Shown here: positions 49,642 through 52,366 of the stretch, in pieces | How positions within the stretch are numbered: position 1 is the first letter of the stretch | Layout: each line of letters opens with the position of its first letter | Source: Auraticoccus monumenti | Lineage (GTDB): Bacteria; Actinomycetota; Actinomycetes; Propionibacteriales; Propionibacteriaceae | Reading direction: 5' to 3' | Assembly (NCBI RefSeq): GCF_900101785.1 | Contig: NZ_LT629688.1 | Span: 2,666,001-2,730,000, forward strand | Length of the DNA stretch: 64,000 bases | The notes under the pieces: generated by a model | What the model saw: the letters and a program-made list of their open reading frames with translations, nothing else | Told to the model about the DNA's origin: nothing | The model's database searches: none | Translations under genes and position numbers: made by a program

Positions 49642-50724
49642 TCAGGGGACGCGCGCCAGCCAGGCGGGGTCGGAGTACTTCGACCCCGCCAGCTCACCGG
49701 CCTCCTCGAGGGTGCCTTGGTCGACGTCGACCGGGTGCAGGCCGTAGCTGTCGCGGAAGTGGCTGGTCATGGCCTCGACCACGGCCTCGCGGCTCAGCCC
49801 GGTCTGGGAGCGGATCGGGTCGACCCGCTTGCCGGCGCTCACCACGCCCTTGTCCGACACCTTCTCCCGCCCGATCCGCAGGATGTCGAGCATCTTGGCC
49901 GCGTCCATGTCGTAGGACATGGTCACGTGGTGCAGCACCACCCCGCTGGCCAGCCGCTTCTGGGCGGCGCCCCCGATCTTGCCGGCCGGGGAGGTGATGT
50001 CGTTGAGCGGGACGTAGCGCGCGTCCACCCCGAGCCCGCGCAGCGCGCGCACCACCCAGGCGTCGAGGAAGGCGTAGGACTCGGCGAAGCTCAGCCCCTC
50101 GACCAGCGTCGCCGGGACGTAGAGGGAGTAGGTGATGGTGTTCCCCGGCTCGACGAACATCGCCCCGCCGCCGGACATCCGCCGCACCACCGTGGTGTCG
50201 TGACGGGCGGCGGCGGTCAGGTCGACCTCGTTGGACAGGGACTGGAACGAGCCGATGATCACCGCGTTGGAGGCCCACTGCCAGACCCGCAGGGCCGGGG
50301 CGCGCAGGCCCTCGCCCAGCTGGCGGGCGATCACCTCGTCCAGGGCCATCTGCATCGCCGGGTGCTGCGGACCGGTCTCGACCAGCTCGAAGCGGTGGTC
50401 CGACCAGCCGGTCGAGCGGCCCAGCGCCCGCAGCACGGCCAGCGCGACCGCCCGGGCGTCGAAGCCCACCAGCACCGCGGCCCCGGCGGCCCGGTCCACC
50501 ACAGCGGTCAGCTCAGCGACCGGTAGGTCGGTCGGCAGCCCGACCAGCGCCCGGCTCATCCAACCCAGCGCCTCGTCGGGCTCCAGGAAGAAGTCCCCGG
50601 AGAGGACCACCGCGGTGATCCTCCCGTCCAGCACCTCCAGGTCGGCCACCACCAGCTTCCCCTCGGTGACCTTGTACTCGCCGTGACGGCGCTCGGGACG
50701 GGTGGACGGCTGGTTCGGCTGCAC
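49642..50724 (-). CDS. lplA: lipoate-protein ligase with N-terminal accessory (LplB-like) domain
   Basis: A 360-residue ligase that activates lipoate with ATP and attaches it to E2 or GcvH lysines. Residues 15-100 (KVTEGKLVVADLEVLDGRITAVVLSGDFFLEP) resemble the accessory domain usually found at the C-terminus of LplA or as separate LplB; here it leads. The catalytic domain (about 110-345) carries RRMSGGGA (181-188) and GKIGG with Lys249. The domain order is therefore circularly permuted relative to E. coli LplA. The start lies beside the 0.8-kb repeat-rich gap. Confidence 0.85.
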   Translation of the reverse strand: MQPNQPSTRPERRHGEYKVTEGKLVVADLEVLDGRITAVVLSGDFFLEPDEALGWMSRALVGLPTDLPVAELTAVVDRAAGAAVLVGFDARAVALAVLRALGRSTGWSDHRFELVETGPQHPAMQMALDEVIARQLGEGLRAPALRVWQWASNAVIIGSFQSLSNEVDLTAAARHDTTVVRRMSGGGAMFVEPGNTITYSLYVPATLVEGLSFAESYAFLDAWVVRALRGLGVDARYVPLNDITSPAGKIGGAAQKRLASGVVLHHVTMSYDMDAAKMLDILRIGREKVSDKGVVSAGKRVDPIRSQTGLSREAVVEAMTSHFRDSYGLHPVDVDQGTLEEAGELAGSKYSDPAWLARVP

Positions 50725-51523
50725 GCCCGGACAACACTGGACCGCCGTCGCTTATGCCGACGCCCCCCTCCAGCTCACGCGGCAGCCCGTCCCTGGCCAG
50801 GCGGCGACTCGCCGCCAGACGTCGCCTCACCCGACCCCCACCCGACCCATCGGGGCCACTCGCCACCCGTGACGAGGGCAGCGCCGGCCCGGGCCCCGGC
50901 GACGAACGCGGCGACTCGCCGTCAGTCGTCGTCTCACCCGACGCCCACCCGACCCGTCGGGGCGACTCGCCACCCTTGACGACGGCAGCGCCAGCCCGGG
51001 CCCCGGCGACGAACGCGGCGACTCGCCGCCAGACGTCGCCTAATCTCACCCCCACCCGACTCGTCGGGGCCACTCGTCGCCCGTGACGACGGCAGCGCCC
51101 GCCCCGGGGCCCGGCCTGGAGCGACGGAAGTGGCGACTCGCCGCCAGTCGTCGTCTCACCCGAGGCCCACCCGACTCATCGGGGCGACTCGCCACGGCAG
51201 ACAGGGACGACCGGGCGTCGGGTGGCGGTGTCGTCCTGGGCGTCCGGGGGAGCGGCCAGGGGCTCGTCAGGACCAGCGGTACGGGACGCGGCGACTGGCC
51301 GCCGGACGTCGCCTCACCCGACCGCGACTCGACACATCGCGCCCACTCGCCACCTGCGCTCGAGGTGGCTCCGACCAGGGCGCGGACGGGCGGGGCCAGG
51401 GTCGTCGCGCGCGCCCGGTCGGCGGCACGAAGGGGCGACTCGCACCGACCACCGCCCACGCGGCTGCCGAGGACCAGCGTCAACTCGCTGGTGCCAGGCG
51501 CCCAGGTCGGCCAGCATGGCCGC
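50725..51523. other. noncoding region dominated by a minisatellite
   Basis: About 800 bases lie between the divergent lplA and SDR starts. Frames on both strands are open in places, but none has actinobacterial codon bias or a recognisable protein. The repeats occupy 50801 to about 51365; the rest (50725-50800, 51366-51523) contains only degenerate fragments such as GGGGCGACTCGC at 51432 and presumably the promoters of the flanking genes. Confidence 0.7.
50801..51365 (+). repeat. five imperfect copies of a ~107-bp minisatellite unit
   Basis: Units start at 50801, 50908, 51015, 51130 and 51288. The first two steps are exactly 107 bases, the third 115, the fourth 158 with extra sequence. Each unit opens with G(C/T)GGCGACT(C/G)GCC, itself a GGCGA-C-TCGCC palindrome in the first four copies, then a CGTCG(C/T)CTCACCCGA stretch. 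In copies 1-4 a stem CCCGA/TCGGG flanks a variable loop (CCCA, CCCG, CTCG, CTCA). Because 107 is not a multiple of three, the array cannot encode a repeated peptide. Confidence 0.8.
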
Positions 51524-52366
51524 GTGCACACCGACTCGACGCTCCCGCTGCAGGGCCGTACCGCGCTGGTCACCGGCGTCAGCCGGCACCGCGGCATCGC
51601 CTTCGCCGTCGCCTCCCGGCTGGCCCGGATGGGCGCCTCGCTGGCCCTCACCCACCACGGCGCCCACGACGCCACCCAGCCCTGGGGGGCCGACGACCAG
51701 GCCTCGGTGACCGCAGCCCTGCGAGAGCAGCTGGCTCCCGGGGCCCGGCTGGCCGAGGTGCCCGCCGACCTGGCCGACCCCGCCGCCCCGGACCGCGTCG
51801 TCGGCGAGCTGGCCGCCGAGCTCGGCCACCTGGACGCCCTGGTCTGCGTGCACGCCCGCTCCGGCGGGGACGCGGCGCTGCCCGAGCAGACCGCGGACCT
51901 GCTCGACGGGCACTGGCAGGTGAACGCCCGCTCCACGCTGCTGCTGACCCGCGCCTTCGCCGCCCAGCCCGGATTCGACCGGTGGCGGCCGGGGGAGGAG
52001 CCACCGGGTCGGGTGGTGTGGATCTCCTCGGGCCAGCACCTGGGCCCGATGCGGGAGGAGATCGCCTACACCGCCTCCAAGGGGGCGCTGCTGGGGGCGC
52101 TGAGGTCGGTGGCCGACCACCTGCTGGAGCGGGGCATCGTGGTGAACGCGGTCAACCCCGGCCCGGTCAACACCGGCTACCTGGACGTCGAGGGCGGGGA
52201 CCGGAGCGCGGAGGTGATCACCCAGGTGGCAAGTGCCTTCCCCACCGGCCGGATGGGTGAACCCGACGACCCGGCCCGGCTGATCGCCTGGCTGGTCAGC
52301 GACGAGGGGCGCTGGGTGGTCGGCCAGGTGCTCGACACCGAGGGCGGCTTCCGGCGCTGGGCGTGA
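51524..52366 (+). CDS. SDR family oxidoreductase
   Basis: A 280-residue short-chain dehydrogenase with a modified cofactor loop TGVSRHRGIA (17-26), in place of TGxxxGxG, a form known in a FabG/YgfF-like subgroup. The active site is SS (168-169) and YTASK (182-186), followed by NAVNPGPVNTGYLD and a C-terminal GQVLDTEGGF. The start is taken at GTG 51524 just before the first strand; a GTG 33 bases upstream is an alternative. Substrate is unknown. It is the first gene after the minisatellite, which may contain its promoter. Confidence 0.82.
   Translation: MHTDSTLPLQGRTALVTGVSRHRGIAFAVASRLARMGASLALTHHGAHDATQPWGADDQASVTAALREQLAPGARLAEVPADLADPAAPDRVVGELAAELGHLDALVCVHARSGGDAALPEQTADLLDGHWQVNARSTLLLTRAFAAQPGFDRWRPGEEPPGRVVWISSGQHLGPMREEIAYTASKGALLGALRSVADHLLERGIVVNAVNPGPVNTGYLDVEGGDRSAEVITQVASAFPTGRMGEPDDPARLIAWLVSDEGRWVVGQVLDTEGGFRRWA

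Follow-up and report, generated by a model that had tools for sequence, protein, structure and literature searches.

A dispersed 62-nt inverted-repeat element, probably a REPIN-like doublet, forms the intergenic array between lplA and an SDR gene of Auraticoccus monumenti

Between the divergent genes lplA and SDR of Auraticoccus monumenti lies an intergenic array whose conserved part is a dispersed element of 62 nt, and not a repeat of 107 bp. A small and probably mobile repeat is the most likely identity of the array, more so than an element dedicated to controlling lplA and the SDR gene, and the family to which it belongs is probably a non-autonomous, REPIN-like or MITE-like doublet repeat, 62 nt long, dispersed between genes and amplified locally.

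Coordinates refer, unless a locus is named, to the window, that is, the whole stretch of 64,000 nucleotides analysed (contig NZ_LT629688.1, positions 2,666,001 to 2,730,000). The five imperfect noncoding copies reported in the preliminary description are indeed present, and they start at 50801, 50908, 51015, 51130 and 51288 with identities to copy 1 of 100, 92, 81, 73 and 73%. The units within them span 50803-51351 with start-to-start spacings of 107, 107, 115 and 158. The period of about 107 bp that had been proposed therefore fits the first three copies, but not the later spacings of 115 and 158 or the conserved unit of 62 nt; it arises because the element is followed by a spacer of about 45 bp. 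Tandem Repeats Finder (TRF) gives the array a period of 107, 3.6 copies and a score of 529, all other rows in the window scoring 78 or less. A coding repeat, which had been excluded from the period already, was rejected because that period is not a multiple of three and because the congener lacks the array; CRISPR was rejected as well, the spacers inside the array being alike. The features are as follows, with scores from R1, a sequence-only model for which 55 of the initial 56 units were used.

49642-50724, minus strand: lipoate-protein ligase gene, LplAB-like (NCBIfam match)
50803-50864, plus strand: unit 1, 62-nt inverted-repeat element (R1 61.9 bits, the top genome score among the matches listed)
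50841-50854, no strand: CCCGA(CCCA)TCGGG hairpin of the preliminary description (equivalents at 50948, 51055 and 51170)
50865-50909, no strand: spacer of 45 nt between units 1 and 2 (alignment of 107-bp copies 1 and 2)
50910-50971, plus strand: unit 2 (R1 56.4 bits)
51017-51078, plus strand: unit 3 (R1 50.7-50.9 bits)
51132-51193, plus strand: unit 4 (R1 57.7 bits)
51290-51351, plus strand: unit 5, with left box GGCGACTGGCC and without the CCCGA/TCGGG stem (R1 53.1 bits)
51524-52366, plus strand: SDR-family oxidoreductase gene (NCBIfam match; congener comparison)

Copies 1-4 open with GGCGACTCGCC, and copy 5 has GGCGACTGGCC in its place. The lipoate-protein ligase scores 525 bits against NCBIfam LplAB, where the cut-off of 550 is not reached, and 70.7 bits against LplB, where that of 65 is passed; the SDR gene, at 282 bits, falls slightly below its cut-off of 286. 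An open frame (51083-52366) overlaps part of the array, and the GTG at 51524 is the probable start of the SDR gene because of the comparison with the congener, whose SDR region aligns only from window position 51544. The host genome encodes MshB (TIGR03445) above cut-off, which we take to mark a mycothiol producer and hence an actinobacterium.

Searching the bacterium's own genome (4.46 Mb, one contig) with the array returned at least 34 matches among 40 candidates scored, and 56 units could be aligned as an almost gap-free block of 62 nt with the consensus GGCGASTSGCC-nCnAG-nn-GTCGCCTC-~14 variable-CGAC-nnn-TC-nn-GGCSASTCGCC. The unit is an imperfect inverted repeat throughout, position i mirroring position 63-i; a degenerate 11-mer, GGCGASTSGCC, faces outward at both ends, inner boxes (GTCG...CGAC) follow, and the centre is variable. 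With R1, the same genome gave at least 151 matches (both strands counted, 150 candidates scored), and 29 fetched genome stretches gave 206 matches at E<=0.001 on both strands, which were reduced by hand to 107 units, one strand per place. The strand kept at L086:3094 is the one 0.2 bits lower, the rows L089:3182 and L097:3131 end one or two bases off the match listing, and partial rows overlap in two pairs (L086, L104) within the 107. Counts on 92 units omit the 15 of the 107 that are partial, gapped or of odd length.

These 107 units, a few of them partial, fall into 31 clusters of the 4.46-Mb genome when units with gaps below 700 bp are joined; 22 clusters hold two to ten units and nine hold one. 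The preliminary description of a local minisatellite does not survive this distribution, the element being dispersed and the periods of its clusters being different. The exact end boxes found in 28 cluster loci lie inside units in 150 of 156 cases. The pattern GGCGASTCGCC occurs 81 times in the genome, against 20 for the reversed pattern. The fetched loci contain 77 of the 81 and the units 73, and the highest count of the pattern in 395 other searched genomes of the phylum is 36. At the loci examined, what is repeated is the pair of boxes and not one box on its own.

All 31 clusters lie between called genes, and no called gene enters a cluster, arrays having been masked; the calls come from a crude script based on GC by codon position, with starts facing the arrays uncertain. 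The flanking genes are convergent at 10 clusters, co-directional at 16 and divergent at five, the lplA-SDR array among the last. Pfam was run on 59 of the 62 flanking gene calls (L082:3330-3575, L097:3850-4758 and L101:2490-2858 being omitted as doubtful), and dehydrogenases are the commonest shared families in the best 25 of 111 families. Neither a shared function, among the 59 genes, nor a shared orientation, across the 31 clusters, was seen. A tie of the array to lplA and the SDR gene finds no support, since the genes beside the other clusters are varied and lie in every orientation, and the corresponding site of the congener is without the array. An apparent strand bias of the units (76 versus 30) was dropped, near-symmetric units giving ambiguous strand calls.

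The spacing of units differs from array to array, with 107/107/115/158 between lplA and SDR, 93-112 at 2.337 Mb, 130-132 at 1.664 Mb, 115-126 at 2.585 Mb and 169-177 at 1.270 Mb; a lost unit may lie hidden in some gaps of 195-265, and those of 51-58 are a product of overlapping partial rows. Within arrays, element and spacer together align to the next copy, and the 107-bp copies 1 and 2, spacer counted in, are 92% identical. The arrays are most simply read as the outcome of local tandem duplication, at many sites, of the element with its flank; such duplication would proceed by slippage or unequal recombination. In nine pairs of cluster loci the two members have matching stretches of 53-426 bp that contain units (E<=1e-12), L095 and L103 for example sharing 275 bp at 80%, and from such sequence matches some clusters may have spread with their flanks rather than as bare 62-nt units. 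As a separate observation, two clusters (L095:2736-2835 and L103:3011-3110) carry, upstream of the unit, a second inverted repeat that measures about 85 nt by eye and has TTCCG...CGGAA ends. It has only two strong matches in the genome (2253231-2253330 and 3263009-3263119), and the end differences between its copies partly preserve pairing.

The stem CCCGA/TCGGG, kept in copies 1-4 with a changing loop, had been taken as a sign of selection on structure. The underlying observation is accurate: CCCGA-NNNN-TCGGG occurs four times on the plus strand of the window, always in the array, with loops CCCA, CCCG, CTCG and CTCA, and the palindrome GGCGA-C-TCGCC stands at the start of the same copies as described. 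The interpretation is not supported, since over 55 units the stem pairs in 69.5% of cells against 70.0% after shuffling, with 363 of 500 shuffles as high. In the array the stem is unchanged in copies 1-4 and broken in copy 5, and therefore there is no compensatory change. Its expected conservation in related arrays likewise fails for the small stem; it is the larger inverted repeat whose sequence is conserved across them. What stands of the structural suggestion is that the palindromic boxes have the capacity to fold, whether as RNA or as single-stranded DNA, or to be bound by protein; the stem as a selected structure lacks support.

On either strand, the folds of single units are more stable than those of dinucleotide shuffles (92 units, each against 60 shuffles), with mean z of -3.4 and -3.6 and 75% of units below -2 per strand. 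The mirrored positions pair in 78.9% of cells, where slid partners reach 28-44%, an excess due in part to the structure having been taken from the consensus; with the 3' letters shuffled, pairing is still 78.1%. For the long hairpin, the covariation score is 0.080 where shuffling gives 0.072 (39 of 500 shuffles reach the observed value), doubly changed pairs number six, fewer than the 8.0 of the shuffles, and single-pair tests over 92 units place one of 33 mirrored pairs (13-50) at p 0.02 and two in deficit. The compensatory signal is at most weak. Plain conservation is seen for a set of sequence boxes arranged in dyad symmetry; the hairpin follows from these and is not necessarily the acting form. 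An RNA element kept by selection, such as a bidirectional terminator or a stabiliser of mRNA ends, would suit the folding on both strands and the placement of the single-unit clusters, of which six of nine lie between convergent genes, three between co-directional ones and none between divergent ones; such a role is nevertheless highly improbable, given that compensatory changes are not clear, that Rfam has no match at gathering score in the 64-kb window, and that five of the 31 clusters, the one beside lplA included, separate divergent genes.

Sequence variation in the end boxes is itself constrained. Positions 4, 6 and 8 vary at each end, with C and G as nearly the sole alternatives. Among 92 units, 54 have C at position 6, 38 have G and none has A or T; at its mirror, position 57, four have A or T. 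Between neighbouring units of an array, C/G exchanges make up 43 of 56 changes at these box positions, against 133 of 496 in the interior (Fisher p 3e-13, uncorrected for shared descent). The boxes at window positions 51183-51193 and 50854-50864 offer an example of this switching. Inversion of the end box as its cause was rejected, only five of 69 changed boxes being exact flips in a recount on the physical strand; a first count (12 of 78 changed boxes exact, seven of the changes triple) had been inflated in part by ambiguous strand calls of near-symmetric units. The tolerance of C and G almost alone at set positions, the fixed length of 62 nt around a variable centre, and boxes conserved with little or no compensatory change would all be expected of sites for a host DNA-binding protein, nucleoid-associated or regulatory, which would read the GGCGA/TCGCC boxes at their dyad spacing and reach a higher local occupancy at arrays. 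We regard such sites as rather unlikely, because the congener and 55 members of the family have no match, the flanking genes are without a seen common function or orientation, and the distribution is very uneven, from one to ten units per place.

The comparison with relatives suggests an apparently recent gain. Searching the genome and its relatives for the unit, as had been proposed, found many units in the former and, with R1 at E<=0.001 under stricter filters by which weak matches are lost, none in the one congener genome or in 55 other genomes of the family. Among 39 genomes of the same order the same filters left one partial match (49 nt, 22 bits), and under a lax cut-off the congener reached no more than 19.3 bits over 44 nt, with four other genomes alike. 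At the array site the congener, whose lplA protein is 88% identical, is collinear for the gene beyond lplA, lplA, the SDR gene and the start of the next gene, and its lplA-SDR gap is without the array; the same anchors are 149 bp apart in the congener and 858 bp apart at the array. The sequences are compatible with an addition in the A. monumenti lineage or a loss in the congener, and addition is favoured because the family is absent from the relatives searched. This empty site is demonstrated at one locus only, and the congener is too diverged there for a target-site duplication to be read. Elsewhere, the L096 flank has no match in the congener, the L087 flank meets only paralogues of about 30% identity, and at L085 the left gene has a congener orthologue but the DNA downstream cannot be aligned. 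By eye, the TTATGCC of the congener's compact divergent gap is also found on the lplA side of the array (window about 50751-50760), a likeness by which the array may have shifted the SDR gene away; the alignment does not place the two stretches together.

Confinement of the family to one species is based on one genome of that species. Across the 84,980 species of the genome_contigs collection, own genome excluded, a pattern of the ends only, which recognises 45 of the 92 aligned units, spread over 17 of the cluster loci, and would thus see many arrays but miss diverged units, was found in two places, and in viral_contigs in none. In Jiangella anatolica (L070:1349-1640) there is a 51-bp tandem repeat with GGCGACTCGCC palindromes, apparently just past a gene end, and in an Opitutaceae metagenome-assembled genome (L071:6620-6820) a tandem array of CGTGGGCGACTCGCCCACG units with GGCGACTCGCC palindromes. 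Both were rejected as relatives, with 8.2 bits at best under R1, and resemble the family in the box only.

A REPIN-like doublet remains the preferred reading. Its working parts would be two outward palindromic boxes (GGCGASTSGCC plus an inner GTCG box) at fixed spacing around a variable centre, and dispersal would call for an enzyme or a recombination process that recognises both ends, possibly as a hairpin of single-stranded DNA. At the lplA-SDR site about 700 extra bp now part two genes that lie almost next to each other in the congener, and an effect on their expression, if any, would be a by-product and not the reason for the array. The Y1 transposase (PF01797) has no match in the A. monumenti genome, the same search being positive in five of 14 control genomes, and no transposase appears in the best 25 of 111 Pfam families of the 59 flanking genes. 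It is possible, though we suggest it tentatively, that a doublet family has spread in a high-GC, mycothiol-producing (actinobacterial) lineage without Y1/RAYT, and that some other enzyme reads end boxes in which C or G is tolerated at three positions per end and A or T hardly ever. Terminal inverted repeats, lack of coding capacity and dispersal between genes would equally describe a MITE of the classical kind, derived by deletion from an insertion sequence (IS) and moved by a DDE transposase that recognises its ends. Tandem arrays, however, are atypical for MITEs. No parent IS was seen in those same 25 families, and 62 nt is below the 70-300 bp given in the available part of PMC3733652; a MITE origin of this kind is distinctly improbable.

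For the REPIN-like doublet, the wider meaning lies in the combination of a large family, apparently gained recently, with a genome in which no Y1 was found, which raises the question of what else mobilises such elements; the fixed unit length and free centre make a clear target for finding the protein. The lead is also corrected, in that the array probably does not serve to regulate lplA and the SDR gene in particular.

It is in proteobacteria that paired palindromic repeats are best known, and the spread of many of them there is tied to RAYT transposases. The MIRU-type VNTR arrays of mycobacteria are, like the 62-nt family, tandem arrays that lie between genes at many places in a high-GC genome, but the A. 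monumenti unit is an inverted repeat and its spacers differ between arrays. In the literature searched, the 11-mer end-box string had no match and no actinobacterial REPIN family was seen among the listed titles and openings of abstracts, which is no proof of absence from print; the word ‘actinobacteria’ is absent from the main text of PMC3733652. According to the accessible portion of that paper (Di Nocera 2013), REPs lie mainly between co-directional and convergent genes, and those tagged with GTAG/CGTC are, like the present element, palindromic, often dimeric and mostly intergenic; the 62-nt unit, however, has no terminal GTAG, its end reading G-N-GGCGA, and its internal GTCG is no tag directly before a stem of 8-9 bp, the preceding position 18 being C in 53 and not C in 39 of 92 units. 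The MITEs RUP, NEMIS and ERIC, as far as they are covered there, share terminal inverted repeats, noncoding character and dispersal between genes, whereas the 62-nt unit is shorter, forms tandem arrays and has no partner transposase seen at its flanks. The likeness is closest in outline to REPINs, which the available text of PMC3116915 and PMC8049555 presents as two inverted short palindromic boxes around a diverse spacer, the pair being the repeated unit, and as extragenic, with hairpin potential and tandem clusters that include flanks; ordered clusters are described in just this way, as tandem repeats with their flanks, by Bertels and Rainey (2011, PMC3116915, in the part available). The differences are that RAYT/Y1 was not found in the A. 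monumenti genome, that the ends read G-N-GGCGASTSGCC and that the host is of the mycothiol type with high GC. E. coli genomes with REPINs but without a RAYT gene exist, according to the available part of PMC8049555, so that a lost RAYT is conceivable in A. monumenti. Membership of the REPINs is not claimed, because neither a PF01797 transposase nor a GTAG/CGTC tag was found; by analogy, it is the design of the 62-nt family that matches theirs.
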